From: Candidatus Jettenia sp. AMX2
Lineage (GTDB): Bacteria; Planctomycetota; Brocadiia; Brocadiales; Brocadiaceae
Assembly: GCA_030583665.1 (NCBI GenBank)
Contig: CP129469.1
Span: forward strand, 1,178,001 to 1,242,000
Direction: 5' to 3'
DNA length: 64,000 nt
Shown here: piece after piece, positions 4,200-28,389 of the stretch
Layout of the letters: every line of letters starts with the position of its first letter
Numbering within the stretch: the stretch's first letter is position 1
Made by a program: the position numbers and the translations under genes
Notes under the pieces: generated by a model
What the model was told of the DNA's origin: nothing
The model's database searches: none
The model's input: the letters and a program-made list of their open reading frames with translations, nothing else

Positions 4200-5897
4200 T
4201 TAACTTATTGTTGACAACGGCAGATTTGCATATATTCTGCAAATCGAGTCTGCAAGTTTATCAGGGTCATGCCTGATCAAATCCTGCTTTTCCCAAAGAA
4301 TGCGTTTTTGGCTAAGATCTTCTATCAAGTCTGCTTTTTTAATATTTACGTTCAGATTGTAGACGCCCTCATCCATGAAAGCCAATTCGGCTCCTTCCTT
4401 TTGATATTTTTCAAGTATTTCCTGACGGGGAATATTATTATTTACAACAACATAATCAAGAATGCCATCTCCGAGGTATTTTATTATTGTATTTATATGA
4501 TCAGATATTTTGTAATGGTCTGTTTGTCCCGGTTGTGTAACAATATTACAAATATAAATTTTTGTAGCTTTGCTGTTCCGTATAGCATTTTTAATGCCTG
4601 AAACTAATAAATTTGTTATAAGACTCGTATAAAGGCTGCCTGGCCCAATGACAATAATATCTGCTTTTAAAATCTCCTCTAAAGCTTCTGGCAAAGGTGT
4701 AACATCGTTGTTTTTGAGAAAAACATTTTTGATGGGTTTTTTCCCTACAGCTCGGACCTTGAATTCCTCTTCAATATAAGTACCGTCTTCCAATTCAGCA
4801 CAGATATGAGTATCTGCAAGCGTTGAAGGAAGTACCTTCCCCCGTATATTCAATATCTTGCTGGCCTTTTTAATCGCTTTTTCAAAACTGCCTGTGATGT
4901 CAGTAAGTGCGGCCATTAACAGATTCCCCAGGCTCATACCTTCGAGTGAGCCTCTGTTGAACCGGTACTGGAACAGTTGGTACAATTCACGTTCTTGTTC
5001 TTCTGTTTCGGAAAGTGCTACGAGACAGTTTCTGGCATCTCCCGGAGGAAGTATTCCGAATTCTTCCCGTAAAATGCCGGAACTCCTTCCCGAGTCTGTA
5101 ACGGTTACAATGGCAGTAAGATTTTTGCTGTAAGTTTTTGAACCCTCAAGTAAAATAGGTAGCCCGGTTCCTCCTCCGATAGCAGCGATTTTCAGCCTTT
5201 CTGGCGGCCTTCCCATTTTATTGAGTTGTAAAATAGTCGGTATCTGAAAAATGCGTTTGATCTTATAATTCGGCCTGTCGCATTCATTCACGAATGGTTC
5301 ATTTTTAAATTTGCCGTGAAGCATTTGAATGGTCGTCATGCCGAATGATTTGGCAATTCGTAGTTCCTCCCTTGGCTTATCACCTACGACAATAACTTCT
5401 TTAGGATTTAAATTATGTCGTTTGATAAGGTCCTGAATGCAATCCTCAACAAGGGGGCCAATTTCCTGATCGGCAATAATAATTTCATCAAAATACGGTT
5501 TTAATCCAAGTATCTGTATTTTTCGTTCCTGACGTTCGTGAACCCCTACCGTGATAAGAAAAAGTTTGTAATATTTTTCTTTTAGCTCGGTAAGTGTGGG
5601 GATGACATCGGGAAATAGCTTGATTTCTGACACTTCGCTGCTATTATATGCCTTGTATGCCAGAGTTACCAATCTATCATCGGCATGAAATTTTTGTACG
5701 ATTTCATCAAACACATGGTGATACGGACCATACGTATCAGCCAGATTTTTCTGCAACTGGTAAGCTTCTTCTTCAGTACACGGCAGTCCTGCCTCGATCA
5801 GTGCCTTTGCTGCGCGCCTTCTTGACGCTTCAATAAGTGAACCGGTACAATCATATAAGGTATCATCCAAATCGAAGATTACCGCTGTTATTTTCAT
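4200..5897 (-). CDS. HAD-like hydrolase fused to a YvcK/CofD-like protein
   Basis: A 565-residue two-domain protein. Residues 1-225 form a haloacid dehalogenase-type phosphatase domain, with nucleophile motif DLDDT at 9-13 (first Asp the nucleophile, second the acid/base), a ITVG motif II near 115 and VVGDKPREE at 171-178 for the metal. Residues 235-565 are the YvcK (UPF0052, gluconeogenesis factor) fold: GGGTG at 241-245, a VTDSGRSSG stretch, FGILPPGDARNCLVAL and SLGNLLMAAL. YvcK proteins bind UDP-sugars and influence cell-wall and carbon metabolism in Firmicutes and Actinobacteria. The start ATG has an AGAGGGGG ribosome-binding site. Both active-site sets look intact. The substrate of the HAD half is unknown. 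It follows nfi by 12 bp, so it is probably in one transcript with it. Confidence 0.88.
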   Translation of the reverse strand: MKITAVIFDLDDTLYDCTGSLIEASRRRAAKALIEAGLPCTEEEAYQLQKNLADTYGPYHHVFDEIVQKFHADDRLVTLAYKAYNSSEVSEIKLFPDVIPTLTELKEKYYKLFLITVGVHERQERKIQILGLKPYFDEIIIADQEIGPLVEDCIQDLIKRHNLNPKEVIVVGDKPREELRIAKSFGMTTIQMLHGKFKNEPFVNECDRPNYKIKRIFQIPTILQLNKMGRPPERLKIAAIGGGTGLPILLEGSKTYSKNLTAIVTVTDSGRSSGILREEFGILPPGDARNCLVALSETEEQERELYQLFQYRFNRGSLEGMSLGNLLMAALTDITGSFEKAIKKASKILNIRGKVLPSTLADTHICAELEDGTYIEEEFKVRAVGKKPIKNVFLKNNDVTPLPEALEEILKADIIVIGPGSLYTSLITNLLVSGIKNAIRNSKATKIYICNIVTQPGQTDHYKISDHINTIIKYLGDGILDYVVVNNNIPRQEILEKYQKEGAELAFMDEGVYNLNVNIKKADLIEDLSQKRILWEKQDLIRHDPDKLADSICRIYANLPLSTIS

Positions 5898-5909
5898 AGA
5901 AACCCCCTC

Positions 5910-6593
5910 TTATTCAATATGCTCTTTTCTCAATCTGTTTACCAGGAGATGTGCTTGCCGTATAGGTTCGGGAATACGATACCCATAACAATTTTTTAAA
6001 ACAATACGGATTGCGGATGGCAGGTCTATTTTATGCCCTGGTGATACAAAAACAGGTTTTGTATTCTTTTTTGTCCGAAGTGCTGCTCCTACAACGGTAT
6101 TTTTATAGACAAGGTCTGAGTATGTGCCTTGACTATTTTCTACAGGAGTATGGCTCCCAATTAATCTTGTTTTTGCACACCCGATAGAAGGTTTATCAAG
6201 AATTAAGCCCATATGGGATGCCAAACCAAAAGAACGGGGATGAGCAATTCCTTGCCCGTCAAATAGAATTATATCAGGATTATTGTTGAGTTTACTAAAT
6301 GCCTTAAGGAGAATTGGGGCTTCACGAAAAGAAAGGAGTCCGGGAATATAGGGAAAACAGACCTTGCCTACAGCCGAGGCTTCTTCAAGCCGTTCTAAAT
6401 ATTTGTTTTGTTTAAATACGATTACCCCTGCAAAAAAACAGTCATTTTTTTTATCATAAGAAACATCTGCGCCAGCTATTGTATGTATTTTAGTGAATTT
6501 TCTTTTAATGAGTAACTGATTTTTCAGGGTTTCTTGAATTTGAATAGCTTTCTTATACCCTACCCGCCAGGAGTGCAACTGATTGAATTTCAT
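5910..6593 (-). CDS. nfi: endonuclease V (deoxyinosine 3'-endonuclease)
   Basis: A 227-residue DNA repair nuclease that cuts one base 3' of deoxyinosine. The acidic metal-binding residues are visible in family order: the Asp of AGADVSY (about residue 44), the Glu of SFREAP, and the Asp of ILFDGQGIAHPR, together with the conserved histidine. The PYIPGLLSFRE block recognises the lesion. The length is typical. The ATG start lies 8 bp after the scpB stop, and the HAD-YvcK gene follows 12 bp later, so scpB-nfi-HAD/YvcK look co-transcribed. Confidence 0.92.
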   Translation of the reverse strand: MKFNQLHSWRVGYKKAIQIQETLKNQLLIKRKFTKIHTIAGADVSYDKKNDCFFAGVIVFKQNKYLERLEEASAVGKVCFPYIPGLLSFREAPILLKAFSKLNNNPDIILFDGQGIAHPRSFGLASHMGLILDKPSIGCAKTRLIGSHTPVENSQGTYSDLVYKNTVVGAALRTKKNTKPVFVSPGHKIDLPSAIRIVLKNCYGYRIPEPIRQAHLLVNRLRKEHIE

Positions 6594-6601
6594 TGTATGC
6601 G

Positions 6602-7129
6602 TTAAGGAGCTTCCAGTTCCTCAAGTTTTGGCAAATCTTTAATATCTTTTAACCCAAAGTATTCAAGGAATTTTTTCGTGGTTCCGTAAAGCAGGGGATG
6701 TCCTAATGAGGCATCTCTTCCCACAACTTTAACAAGATCTCTTTCCATAAGTACTTTGATAATCTGGCCGGACTGTACCCCCCGGATGGACTCTACGGTT
6801 GCCCTTATGACGGGTTGTTTATAAGCAATGATAGACAATGTTTCAAGAGCTGCCTGCGAGAGTCTTGTTTCTCCGGTTCTTTTTCGTAACCGTGATATCC
6901 ATTCATAATATTCCGGTTTTGTATAAAAATGATAACCACCTGCTACTTCTTCAATTTGGAATGCCCTCCCCTGTGTATCATATTCTTGCCTTAACTGTTC
7001 AATAGCCTTCTGAACAAGAGTGTTATCAGCATCTTCGATGATATCGGTGAGTTTCCGCAATGTGACCGGTTCTTCAGCCGCAAAGAGTAATGATTCAACA
7101 ATAGATTTGATTTCTTCAATTTCTCTCAT
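6602..7129 (-). CDS. scpB: segregation and condensation protein B
   Basis: ScpB is the winged-helix kleisin-partner subunit of the SMC-ScpAB chromosome condensation complex. Visible landmarks are IVESLLFAAEEPVTL near the N terminus, then LSQAALETLSIIAYKQPV (second winged helix), RGVQSGQIIKVLMERDLV and a C-terminal YGTTKKFLEYFGL. The open frame extends 13 codons further to a TTG at 7168, 4 bp from rnfG. The ATG at 7129 gives the usual family N terminus (MREIEEIKSIVESLL) and is preferred, but no strong ribosome-binding site decides. scpA is not beside it, which is unusual. Instead it follows rnfG. Confidence 0.9.
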   Translation of the reverse strand: MREIEEIKSIVESLLFAAEEPVTLRKLTDIIEDADNTLVQKAIEQLRQEYDTQGRAFQIEEVAGGYHFYTKPEYYEWISRLRKRTGETRLSQAALETLSIIAYKQPVIRATVESIRGVQSGQIIKVLMERDLVKVVGRDASLGHPLLYGTTKKFLEYFGLKDIKDLPKLEELEAP

Positions 7130-7172
7130 AAGGTGAAATAGTATTGATAAATCTATAGGAAAATGCAACTGT

Positions 7173-7901
7173 TTATCTGATTTCCCATGTTGAAGGCTGA
7201 ACCGTGGTTTTCATTTTATTGATGGCATCCTGTACCGCGCCAATTACTGCTTTTGTAGAAACCGTAGCTCCGGTAATAGCCGTAATTTTATCCGGATTTT
7301 TTACCTTCGATACAACAAGCTGATTATAGGTTTTTTCTTTAAATTGTTCCTGAAACCAGGGCAGATCCCTGGTTTTAGGTTCTTGTTCTAATCCAAATAT
7401 TTTTACTCTTTCCGGTTGTTTGAAAAACGGTAATTTCCACAATTCACTTTCGTACTGATTTATTGATGTCAGTTTTTTCCCGAAAATCAGACTCCAGAGC
7501 GTAGTTGTACTTTCAACCTCAATTACTTTCGTTCCTAAACCGGGAGTTTCATTTTGTGAGAGTATATTGATTCCAAGGATTTTCTCTAAGCTGGTATCTA
7601 TTCCTACCATGGCTTTAATTCTACTTGAGTATCCCTGGGCATCTCCACAGGTGGCGTACCCAATGACCTTGCCGGCCTTGTCGATGCCTTTATAAATTTT
7701 GTCCTGGTCTGCGGTATTTGCAGGTGTAATTTCAACAGATTCGTGTAAACCGGGAAGTACGGTGTATAAAGCTTCCATACGGATTGCCAGTTCCTTCTTT
7801 TTAATTGTATTCTCTGTAAGCAGAAAGACCGATGCCACTCCGAGGGCTGCCAAAAGTGAAACGGCAGTAAGAACGAGCGGATATTGTTTCTTCTTGTGCA
7901 T
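7173..7901 (-). CDS. rnfG: Rnf electron transport complex subunit G (covalent FMN)
   Basis: A 242-residue membrane-anchored flavoprotein of the Rnf complex, which couples ferredoxin:NAD+ electron transfer to ion translocation. One N-terminal membrane helix (about residues 8-28) is followed by an extracytoplasmic FMN-binding domain. The TAITGATVST segment near 208-217 holds the threonine to which FMN is attached through a phosphoester bond. It starts 1 bp after the rnfD stop. In most Rnf operons rnfE, rnfA and rnfB would follow, but here scpB does. Confidence 0.92.
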   Translation of the reverse strand: MHKKKQYPLVLTAVSLLAALGVASVFLLTENTIKKKELAIRMEALYTVLPGLHESVEITPANTADQDKIYKGIDKAGKVIGYATCGDAQGYSSRIKAMVGIDTSLEKILGINILSQNETPGLGTKVIEVESTTTLWSLIFGKKLTSINQYESELWKLPFFKQPERVKIFGLEQEPKTRDLPWFQEQFKEKTYNQLVVSKVKNPDKITAITGATVSTKAVIGAVQDAINKMKTTVQPSTWEIR

Positions 7902-25074: not shown

Positions 25075-25416
25075 ATGTCAAACATAACCAAAATACTTGC
25101 CCCTGATGGATCTGAAATTTATATCCAGTACGGAGAGGAAGAAAACGAAAAACTCCGGGCCGTTGGGGTTAGTAAAGAAGATATTTCTGGAAGGACGAAA
25201 AAATTTATGGAAGAGCTGCCCAAGACCATTCGCGGCTATTCAACGATGGTACTGAATGCTGTACAGGAAGGTATAACTGGCCAGATTGCACCCGAAAAAG
25301 TAACACTGGCATTTGGCCTGCAGATTGGGGGTGAGGCAGGTATACCCTTCATCACGAAGGGAACCGCACAGGCTAATGTTACAGTAAACATCGAATGGAA
25401 TTTAAAAAAAGGTTGA
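25075..25416 (+). CDS. trypsin-co-occurring domain 1 (Trypco1) protein
   Basis: A 113-residue single-domain protein resembling the CU044_2847/Trypco1 family: a beta-rich start (EIYIQYGEEE), a central helix (TIRGYSTMVLNAVQEGITG), PEKVTLAFGLQIGGEAGIPFIT, and an ending strand ANVTVNIEWNL. The family is known from comparative genomics to occur beside trypsin-like proteases in NTPase-dependent conflict systems. Here it precedes a trypsin-NACHT gene by 6 bp, exactly that arrangement. The ATG follows ATGGAGAAGCCTG, a reasonable ribosome-binding site. It may be a regulator or the substrate of the neighbouring protease; that is inference. Confidence 0.8.
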   Translation: MSNITKILAPDGSEIYIQYGEEENEKLRAVGVSKEDISGRTKKFMEELPKTIRGYSTMVLNAVQEGITGQIAPEKVTLAFGLQIGGEAGIPFITKGTAQANVTVNIEWNLKKG

Positions 25417-25422
25417 TGATAC

Positions 25423-26868
25423 ATGCCTCATTACGACATCGATACACTACGGGAATCGATGGTAAAGATCCTTCAGGATGATGGACAAACAACATCAGGT
25501 TCAGGTTTTATCATTCGCGAAGATGGATACATCGTCACTTGCCACCATGTCATTTACCAGTTAAAGAAACTCGGGGTAGAATATAAGAATCAGGTATTCG
25601 ATGCAACGTGGTGCGAAGACCTCTCAGATCCGGATGTTGATATTGCTGTCCTGAAAATAGATATTGAAAATGCCAAAACAGTACCGATTATTAAACCCAA
25701 AGAGCTGCAAGGACCAGTTACCGTTTATGGGTTTCCTGTTTCAAAAGAAGAATATTTTCCAAAAGGCTTTGATGTTCCTGCCGGTCAGATACAAAAAAGC
25801 GCATCCGTTAACACGCATGCTACTTACAACACCCTGGAAATTAAGTTTAACAATGCGTGGAACAGGCTTCCTCATAAAGATTCATGCTTCTCTTCTTATC
25901 GAATTCATGAAAAGGTTGATCCTGGCACAAGCGGTGGTCCCGTCCTTGCAGAAAATTTAGATGGGGTGGTAGGAATTGTGCAAAGCAGTAAAACCGGGGA
26001 GACCTATATTATTCGATGGGATAATATTCTCCCAAGCCTGGACAAACTGGGATTGGAGCCAAAGAAAAATGCGATATGCAGGTTCCTGGAAGACATTGAA
26101 AACAGATTCAAGGAAATAAAACTTTTCCACATCCGGCAAAAAATTCTTATGGAAAACCAATATATCCCCATTCAGGTCACCGTTGAGAGAAAATACCGTC
26201 ATGAAATAGAAACGTCATGGGGATATAGTGAGTCAGAGGAAGAATTGAAGCGTGCGTATGCCGTGAAAGGGGAGACAGAAGAATCGCAAAGGACTCAGGT
26301 ACCATGGGAAGATGCAAGGAAAGAGTATCAGAAAATTATGGTGCTTGCTGACCCGGGTATGGGAAAATCGACTCTCCTTCAGATGGAGGCGCTCGAAATT
26401 GCCATAAATGAACGGCAAAGTCTCAGGGAAGAAGGAAAAAACATTGAAGATATCATCGTTCCACTCAATATTAAGCTTTATGATCTGGCAAAGGATACGA
26501 GAGAGGTAGTGGATGTTATCCCGGATTTAGTTTCCCGTGACTACCCGAAAACTTCAAAGGGAATCACCGGTCTTTTAAAGGAAAAGTTGGAAGAAGGGAA
26601 GTGTACCCTGTTGCTGGATGCGCTGGATGAGGTGCCTCTGGAACACAGGAGAGAGCTGGCAGAAAGGCTTAACAGGTTTGCCGGAAATTATGACTGCCCG
26701 GTTATCTGCACCTCAAGAATTGCCGGATATGGCGGCGCTTTTTTGGATGGCGCCAAGGAAGTTGAGATCGTGCCCTTTGCCTGGAACAGACAGAGGATTA
26801 TATTCATACATGGTTTACCAATGCCAGGGATTTTATCAATGATGATTCGGTCTCTGCCACGGGATTAA
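25423..26868 (+). CDS. trypsin-like protease fused to NACHT ATPase, N-terminal fragment
   Basis: The first 450 or so residues of a large receptor-like protein. Residues 1-215 are a trypsin-fold protease with a complete triad: His42 (TCHHVI), Asp73 (DIAVLK) and Ser170 (GTSGGPV). Residues 295-450 start a NACHT STAND-type NTPase with Walker A ADPGMGKST (310-318) and Walker B TLLLDALDEVP. After VPFAW (26773-26784) this frame continues into unrelated sequence to 26868. The NACHT domain continues in the next frame as QTEDYIHTWF from about 26787. Restoring one G in the TGG of 26782-26784 gives WEQTEDYI, the usual NACHT sequence. So this is one broken gene, or one gene with a sequencing or programmed frameshift. 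Confidence 0.85.
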   Translation: MPHYDIDTLRESMVKILQDDGQTTSGSGFIIREDGYIVTCHHVIYQLKKLGVEYKNQVFDATWCEDLSDPDVDIAVLKIDIENAKTVPIIKPKELQGPVTVYGFPVSKEEYFPKGFDVPAGQIQKSASVNTHATYNTLEIKFNNAWNRLPHKDSCFSSYRIHEKVDPGTSGGPVLAENLDGVVGIVQSSKTGETYIIRWDNILPSLDKLGLEPKKNAICRFLEDIENRFKEIKLFHIRQKILMENQYIPIQVTVERKYRHEIETSWGYSESEEELKRAYAVKGETEESQRTQVPWEDARKEYQKIMVLADPGMGKSTLLQMEALEIAINERQSLREEGKNIEDIIVPLNIKLYDLAKDTREVVDVIPDLVSRDYPKTSKGITGLLKEKLEEGKCTLLLDALDEVPLEHRRELAERLNRFAGNYDCPVICTSRIAGYGGAFLDGAKEVEIVPFAWNRQRIIFIHGLPMPGILSMMIRSLPRD

Positions 26869-28025
26869 TGAAAGAGCTGAAAAACAAACCGCAGGTTCGT
26901 GGACTGGCTCAGAATCCTTTACTGTTATCACTTCTTTGCAGCCTGTATCAGGAAAAAGAGATTACCCTGCCCGCACAACGTTGTAAGATCTATGAAAAGG
27001 CAGTAACATACTTGTTGGAAAAATGGACCCGGAACAGGAACCCGCAACCGGATGCATATATTTACGCCAAAATCAGCTTGCTGGAGAGGCTTGCGTATGA
27101 TTTCACCTGTGAGGAAAAAGAGATTTTCACCGTGGGTGAGATTGCTAATAAAATTAGTGGATACAAGAAGCTTGACGAATTCTCTGACGAGTTTAGGGAT
27201 ACCAAACCCTCAGCATTGATTACAGAACTCTCTGAATCAGATGGTATACTTCAAAAACTTGAAAGGGAAGGCGACAGGTATCTTTTTCTCCACAGAACCT
27301 TTCAGGAATATCTTACGGCTTCTTATATCAACAGGGTTATCGAAAAAAAACGGGAAGAAGGTATTGGTAGAGCAAAAAGGCATTTTTGGGATTATGAATG
27401 GCATGAAACCTTAAGCTTGCTTGCCGGCATGATGAGAGACCCTGGCGCCCTGATCCGTGCCCTGATGGAGGAAAAAGATGATATCTTCTCCACCCTGCCA
27501 TTATTAGCAGGAAGGTGTATCGCCGAATGTACCGAATGTAATGTGCCTGATGACCAGCTTATTCATGGCATCATTGATCGTATTTACGGGTTATGGATGA
27601 AATACCCGGGGCTTGGTTTTATTCAAACCTGTGTGGTTTCTCTGGGTCAGAGCAGGGATCACATGATTAAACAATTACAAAAGGCGCTCAAGGACGGGGA
27701 TAGTGATGTGAGAGGGAGAGCTGTGTGGGCCTTAGAGAAGATAGGTGATGCCCGTGCCGTGGGTGCATTGATCCAGGCGCTCAAGGACGGGGATTGTAAT
27801 GTGAGAGGGAGAGCTGTGTGGGCCTTAGAGAAGATAGGTGGTGACCGTGCCGTAGATGCATTGATCGAGGCGCTCAAGGACAAGGATAGTATTGTTAGAG
27901 AGAGAGCTGCGGAGGCCTTAGGGGAAATAGGTGATGCCCGTGCCGTAGATGCATTGATCGAGGCGCTCAAGGACGGGGATTGTAATGTGAGAGAGAGCTG
28001 CGGAGGCGTTAAGGAAGATAGGTGA
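26868..28025 (+). CDS. NACHT-HEAT receptor, middle fragment
   Basis: The second frame of the receptor, open from about 26787, so the ATG at 26868 is probably not a true start. It carries the NACHT helical domains ([48 protein letters not shown]) and then, from 27683, tandem HEAT repeats of 31 residues ([20 protein letters not shown] type). In the fourth repeat the sequence GTGAGAGAGAGCTGC has two bases fewer than its neighbours need, the frame shifts and ends at 28025. Restoring an AG pair joins this part to 28036-28389. NACHT-HEAT proteins are ATP-switched sensors, with the repeats sensing the trigger. Confidence 0.8.
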
Positions 28026-28238
28026 TGCCCGTGCCGTGGGTGCATTGATCGAGGCGCTCAAGGACAAGGATAGTTGGGTTAGATGGAATGCTGCGGTGGC
28101 CTTAGGGGAGATAGGGGATGTCCGTGCCGTGGATGCATTGATCCAGGCGTTCAAGGATGAGGATAGTCGGGCTAGAGAGAGAACTGCGAATGCCTTAGGG
28201 AAGATAGGCACGTTAACAACGTTAGAAAAACTTATCAA
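27683..28238 (+). repeat. six 93-bp tandem repeats encoding HEAT units
   Basis: The GGCG(C/T)TCAAGGA landmark recurs at 27683, 27776, 27869, 27962, 28053 and 28146. Intervals are 93, 93, 93, 91 and 93 bp. The single 91-bp interval is the 2-base loss that breaks the frame. The first units differ from each other at only a handful of positions, so the array expanded or was homogenised recently. Confidence 0.95.
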
Positions 28239-28389
28239 GGATCCTGATCTTAATATTTTTGCTCCTGAAGTTTTTTCTCTTGCCAGATCGCTGGCGGTTC
28301 GATTCAGGAAGGAGAAATCAGATTTTATTCCTGTTTATCCGGAGTTGATTGATAAACATCGTAAACAGGTTTTATTTCATATATGTTAA
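28036..28389 (+). CDS. NACHT-HEAT receptor, C-terminal fragment
   Basis: The last 117 residues of the receptor in the third frame: two more HEAT repeats ([20 protein letters not shown] and [20 protein letters not shown]) and a helical cap ([20 protein letters not shown]). The GTG at 28036 is inside the repeat array and is unlikely to be a real start. With both deletions restored the whole gene 25423-28389 would encode about 989 residues: trypsin, NACHT, six HEAT units, cap. The stop overlaps the following phosphodiesterase gene by 7 bp. Confidence 0.75.

Follow-up and report, generated by a model that had tools for sequence, protein, structure and literature searches.

A tandem 93-bp HEAT array in Candidatus Jettenia sp. 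AMX2: probable sensor of a bacterial trypsin-NACHT receptor family, carried here by a frame-broken gene

A stretch of 64,000 nucleotides from Candidatus Jettenia sp. AMX2 (Planctomycetota; assembly GCA_030583665.1, contig CP129469.1, positions 1,178,001 to 1,242,000 of the forward strand), hereafter called the window and numbered from its first letter, contains a run of similar 93-bp HEAT units behind a NACHT NTPase region. An initial annotation had taken this run for a rapidly changing sensor at the C-terminus of a NACHT receptor. The locus thus raises the question of whether such an array is the variable, ligand-binding end of a receptor or simply an unstable repeat, and whether the gene that carries it is still whole. 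We consider it probable, at roughly 0.6, that the array forms the EZ/PBS-type HEAT sensor at the C-terminus of a STAND (NLR-like) receptor, shaped by shuffling of its units and by diversifying selection on one face. The idea of a rapidly changing sensor was for the most part borne out by array turnover and face variation in homologues; it did not hold in the same way for the window copy, which is frame-broken twice.

TRF detected a tandem array with a 93-bp period at 27682-28208 (5.7 copies, 84% matches). The landmark GCG[CT]TCAAGGA starts at 27684, 27777, 27870, 27963, 28054, and 28147, giving spacings of 93, 93, 93, 91, and 93 bp; these spacings agree with the initial annotation, which had noted the single 91-bp step and overlooked that it is a frame break. 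At offset 93, 184-nt self-matches reached 88.6% in the array, versus 44% for the top 184-nt self-match at offsets 60-150 outside it in the whole window, and the self-similarity of the array is far above chance. The repeat corresponds to a 31-residue, two-helix unit with a PBS-HEAT signature (PF13646, PF03130; alphaRep matches in the PDB).

All units lie on the plus strand: unit 1 at 27684..27776 (93 bp, 31 residues), unit 2 at 27777..27869 (93 bp, 92.5% identical to unit 1), unit 3 at 27870..27962 (93 bp), unit 4 at 27963..28053 (91 bp), unit 5 at 28054..28146 (93 bp), and unit 6 at 28147..28239, with a HEAT-like first half and a diverged cap as its second half. The array is therefore real, but its description as six near-identical units was too generous. 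Pairwise identity among units 1-5 ranged from 78.5 to 92.5%, i.e. 7-20 differences, so that adjacent units were not, as had been stated, different at only a few positions. Unit 6 was 61-67% identical to the other units, with the resemblance confined to its first half, because a different capping sequence takes up its second half. Unit 4 has a mosaic make-up: over the first third it is identical to unit 2, and over the last third it has one difference from unit 1, which is the pattern that unit exchange inside the array would be expected to leave. A genome-wide search found no second copy of the array that could have acted as a gene-conversion donor.

The array belongs to a module whose first gene (25075..25416, plus strand) encodes a 113-aa Trypco1 (trypsin-co-occurring domain 1) protein (PF19493, E=1.5e-18), the sole Trypco1 in the genome. 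The receptor gene that follows consists, in the window, of three plus-strand ORFs in successively different frames (25423-26868, 26868-28025, and 28036-28389). ORF 1 (25423..26868) encodes a trypsin-like peptidase (Trypsin_2, PF13365, E=8.7e-13) and the first half of the NACHT P-loop NTPase; inspection revealed H, D, and GTSGGP serine motifs, a Walker A motif (ADPGMGKST), and a Walker B-like motif (LLLDALDE). The P-loop region matched NPHP3_N just below the cut-off, the match being weak because the gene is broken, and homologues at 46-58% identity matched NACHT (PF05729) above the cut-off. ORF 2 (26868..28025) contains the second NACHT half, the helical domains, and HEAT units 1 to 4 (the last in part), with matches to HEAT_2 (E=2.2e-27) and HEAT_PBS (E=5.7e-25), and shares 54-56% identity with proteins of Sphaerospermopsis and Anabaena. 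ORF 3 (28036..28389) holds the remaining array and a C-terminal cap, of which a 23-residue segment is kept in homologues. In a PDB sequence search, the HEAT array matched artificial alphaRep binders with E-values down to 2e-100.

The position at the C-terminus of a NACHT receptor thus stands as far as domain order is concerned: Trypco1 is followed by trypsin, NACHT, and HEAT, an order of effector, NTPase, and repeat which in the window is divided among three ORFs instead of one. In four homologues (L122, L124, L127, and L132), effector, NTPase, and repeat sensor are joined in one open protein; these are the four Trypco1-linked loci with Pfam-scanned N-termini, and all four matched Trypsin_2 and NACHT. 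Trypco1 was found upstream at six homologous loci (these four, L130, and L131), with 50-57% identity. At two further loci (L128 and L129), EAD10 replaces trypsin at the N-terminus of the same NACHT-HEAT core, and we therefore consider that effector domains have been swapped on one core.

The NACHT part of the gene (26868-27680) was used as the query for the distribution of the module, which proved patchy. At a cut-off of E<=1e-25, no match was found in 391 other genomes sampled from the organism's own phylum (392 including its own), and its own taxonomic family contained weak NACHT relatives only, at about 30% identity. The NACHT was present in 19 of the 217 genomes of the family of Anabaena catenula (G034), at 46-58% identity, and no relatives were found on viral contigs. 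In the NACHT tree, the branch leading to the window sequence is long and weakly supported, and we claim no direction of transfer. The neighbours of the module encode an ABC transporter, MscL, and a type I phosphodiesterase; no MoxR ATPase or vWA gene adjoins it at the locus. The genus sister has the phosphodiesterase (77% DNA identity) without the module and carries, by reading, a kdsA-like gene on the module side of it. Two other genomic settings were also observed. The NACHT-HEAT query matched plasmid 3 of Scytonema sp. NIES-4073 (L023) at 15 separate places amid numerous transposase genes; the matches include HEAT arrays of about 10 units with a 99-bp period, and the plasmid carries scattered NACHT/HEAT fragments. 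At L085, two tandem 109-bp copies (7624-7837; 93% matches) adjoin a NACHT ORF (4213-7614, minus strand).

Two frame breaks, neither of which the initial annotation had recognised, rule out a single intact NACHT-HEAT receptor in the window. The first (26786..26868, plus strand), across which homology to relatives shifts from frame 1 to frame 0, is a one-base frame change near 26790, within the NACHT, in unique sequence with no homopolymer. The second lies in unit 4, where a GA run lacks two bases, which accounts for the 91-bp step; ORF 2 stops just past this deletion, and ORF 3 continues in another frame. All calculations counted the codon left incomplete in unit 4 as missing, and no frame was restored. 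The homologues are open across both sites. Programmed frameshifting was considered and rejected, as the first break showed no slippery heptamer. ORF 1 stops and ORF 2 starts within an overlapping TAATG (26866-26870), for which coupled translation of both gene halves is conceivable in principle; the overlap is probably a coincidence, because ORF 2 begins at a natural Met codon where the sequence is conserved. Another disrupted member (L136; G214:C411) was observed, with an in-frame TAG in its NACHT match and an early end.

The window copy is probably decaying or newly inactivated, or else misassembled, and it may be dead. Whether the module was gained horizontally, its receptor then lost by frameshift, and its array left as a functionless relic is, in our judgement, an even call for this copy. 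The two breaks point that way, as does the absence of the module from the genus sister and the rest of the sampled phylum. The surroundings also argue for real decay over error-prone assembly: neighbouring genes are intact, no other gene in the window is evidently split, and overlapping neighbours checked by Pfam proved to be separate proteins, so that a generally poor assembly is unlikely. The broken gene itself has no nonsense codon and retains its catalytic and nucleotide-binding motifs; any inactivation would therefore be recent, and it would concern this copy only, which is compatible with a sensor role for the array in the family.

Alternatively, the breaks, and perhaps the exact number of units, may be consensus errors in a gene that is intact in the organism. 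The genome is a single 3.46-Mb contig, one break falls in an error-prone dinucleotide run within a repeat, and the homologous genes have an intact reading frame. These points are countered by the break near 26790, in unique sequence where no homopolymer would favour an error, and by the intact genes on either side, and we regard an artefact as possible, with the odds leaning against it.

The behaviour of the array was examined by comparing the homologues. Unit number and sequence had been proposed as the comparison to make, and between species both were found to change quickly. In the closest pair (L122 and L123), the NACHT nucleotide sequences are 95.8% identical and align without gaps, whereas the arrays are 80.4% identical and comprise 9 versus 11 units, the count of 11 being provisional because L123 is on a small contig. 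Apart from the last unit, the units of this pair show no positional correspondence. Similarly, L122 and L127 are 93.7% identical in the NACHT and 84.5% in the array, with 9 versus 6 units. These differences in repeat number (6, 9, and 11 units in close homologues) are differences between species. High-identity arrays in complete homologous genes ranged from 6 to 15 units.

Several homologues retain old, diverged arrays, and these behaved differently. Two such pairs were nearly collinear, with identities of 96.7% in the NACHT and 95.5% in the array (L137 and L138) and of 90.2% and 89.4%, respectively (L133 and L135); old arrays thus diverge in step with their NACHT. In the homologues with high-identity arrays, the sensor end has been replaced and re-sorted while the NTPase core stayed put. 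A tandem arrangement was seen at L124 (3722-11227; G218:C1), where two trypsin-NACHT-HEAT genes with 11 and 13 units lie behind one Trypco1; their NACHT regions are 83% identical at the amino-acid level, and this recent duplication already differs in array length.

We then considered where within the units the changes fall. In alphaRep libraries, positions 18, 19, 22, 23, 26, and 30 of the 31-residue unit are randomised, and these six positions form the concave binding face (PMC3754942). They correspond to codons 7, 8, 11, 12, 15, and 19 in the register used here, which was set by the spacing xxVRxxAAxALGxIG in alphaRep alignments, the face being assigned from solved alphaRep structures. In units 1-5 of the window, all six face codons vary, compared with 7 of the 25 others (Fisher p=0.002), and 53% of the nonsynonymous differences fall in these 6 of 31 codons (permutation p=0.0009). 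Values of pN were 0.40 at the face and 0.091 elsewhere, with a pS of 0.105 overall. The expectation that variable codons would cluster on one face of the solenoid was thus confirmed, the changes being concentrated at the six alphaRep positions of the predicted face.

The same concentration of nonsynonymous differences was found in 10 of the 11 arrays analysed (the window and ten homologues; p<=0.0011), the exception being L132 (p=0.16). At the face, pN exceeded overall pS in all 11 arrays; this is a plain comparison of pN with pS, and recombination can inflate selection tests. The eleven arrays represent about five lineages, since arrays of sister proteins are not independent events. Scaffold positions L17, I20, V9, and R10 were nearly fixed. 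As judged from the alphaRep alignments, the changes lie at the contact positions of designed binders with this fold.

As controls, we used 29 HEAT loci, the best HEAT_2 matches across the organism's own taxonomic family. A roughly 93-bp TRF array was absent from 27 of them, in line with the remark in the initial annotation that ordinary HEAT arrays are more diverged. The two exceptions were a NACHT-HEAT protein (L057) and a HEAT-only protein (L068/L088), and further high-identity arrays were found in two NACHT-HEAT proteins (L074 and L083) and a P-loop protein (L090). The HEAT-only protein (L088 1047-2528; G030:C12) has 494 aa and about 8 units at 78% identity, lacks a NACHT, and shows a similar face concentration (pN 0.43 versus pS 0.24). 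The P-loop protein (L090 2569-5364; G028:C90) is 932 aa long and carries a P-loop motif; a HEAT array with a 99-bp period and 90% identity lies close to its N-terminus, and the changes in this array are likewise concentrated at the face. In L083 and L074, which belong to the organism's own family, pN at the face was below pS.

The face pattern recurs in 10 of 11 receptor-type arrays, but as a sign of a sensor it is weakened by its presence in HEAT-only L088; we rejected it as proof of an immune role and regard face variation as common to young HEAT arrays in general and not as a mark of immune receptors. That the arrays reflect neutral instability alone, with unequal crossing-over changing the units, the face varying as the least constrained surface, and neither selection for specificity nor a sensor role, is unlikely: it could draw on the face concentration in L088 and L090, on the closeness of off-face pN to pS in the window (0.091 versus 0.105), which indicates weak overall constraint, and on prokaryotic WD40 proteins, whose high internal identity has been ascribed to recent duplication without immunity (PMC5587647), yet relaxed constraint alone cannot raise pN above pS, the scaffold residues are held nearly fixed, and young arrays are rare among ordinary HEAT loci and recur in several NACHT-HEAT genes of the organism's own family.

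Taken as a sensor, the array would work within a two-gene module formed by Trypco1 and trypsin-NACHT-HEAT, with the HEAT solenoid as the putative ligand-binding part. Recombination would duplicate, delete, and shuffle the 93-bp units, giving internally similar arrays of changing length, and diversifying selection on six exposed positions per unit would give each array a different binding surface. By analogy with other STAND proteins, ligand binding may lead to oligomerisation of the NACHT and this, in turn, to activation of the trypsin domain, possibly with Trypco1 as its partner; the outcome would most likely be a defence or cell-death response. The window copy would then be a probable recent casualty of two frame breaks in a family with intact relatives. 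The stronger proposal, that repeat-cassette recombination with a six-residue hypervariable face per unit creates new specificities for a protease wired through the NACHT, is more tentative and, in our estimate, falls somewhat short of an even chance.

In the literature searched, with incomplete coverage, we found no bacterial NACHT-HEAT receptor described as having both repeat turnover and a hypervariable face. If correct, this reading would add a repeat-shuffling route to bacterial anticipatory immunity beside the reverse-transcriptase route of DGRs, and a natural counterpart to the alphaRep binder library; the arrays would list natural binding surfaces, for which ligands could be sought directly. 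Turnover of the array and not of the NACHT, together with change at six positions, makes the question testable in culturable cyanobacteria.

Among known systems, bNACHT anti-phage proteins share the NACHT core with an effector and a C-terminal sensor; the family described here differs from them in its trypsin effector with Trypco1 and is known from sequence only. To our knowledge, rapid array turnover has not been described for bNACHT proteins. Trypco1 was named by Kaur et al. 2020 (PMC7159879), and the conflict systems described there resemble the present module in that Trypco1 neighbours a fusion of a trypsin-like peptidase with an NTPase region and that superstructure-forming repeats are the proposed sensor. 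In that paper, Trypco1 and trypsin are paired within VMAP / MoxR-vWA ternary systems, whereas here trypsin is fused to NACHT-HEAT. In prokaryotes, WD40 proteins are enriched in Cyanobacteria and Planctomycetes, and some have high internal identity (PMC5587647).

The likeness to fungal NLRs drawn by the initial annotation was apt. Repeat-shuffling sensors under selection at the binding face are well described for fungal NLRs, whose repeats are highly conserved internally, polymorphic in length, and selected at surface positions (PMC4986451); the arrays studied here show the first two features, together with a pN above pS at the predicted face. The fungal proteins (HNWD, NACHT-ANK, and TPR; PMC4986451, PMC12222747) likewise combine a STAND NTPase, an N-terminal effector, and high-identity C-terminal repeats with length polymorphism and variability at few surface positions. 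They use WD40, ANK, or TPR repeats, whereas the present family is bacterial, with HEAT (EZ/PBS) repeats and a protease effector, and its variation was seen between species and not between alleles. Together, these features suggest a bacterial counterpart of the fungal high-identity NLR sensors, which is supported in the relatives more than in the window. DGR-diversified NACHT and ternary-system sensors (PMC10907252) are likewise putative antigen sensors of bacteria that have a link to NACHT and Trypco1 and diversify rapidly, but by a reverse transcriptase acting on C-type lectin domains, in place of the repeat duplication and shuffling proposed here. Finally, the artificial HEAT-like alphaRep binders (PMC3754942) share with these arrays the 31-residue unit, the sequence match in the PDB, and the same six variable positions; their variability was designed, whereas that of the present arrays is natural.
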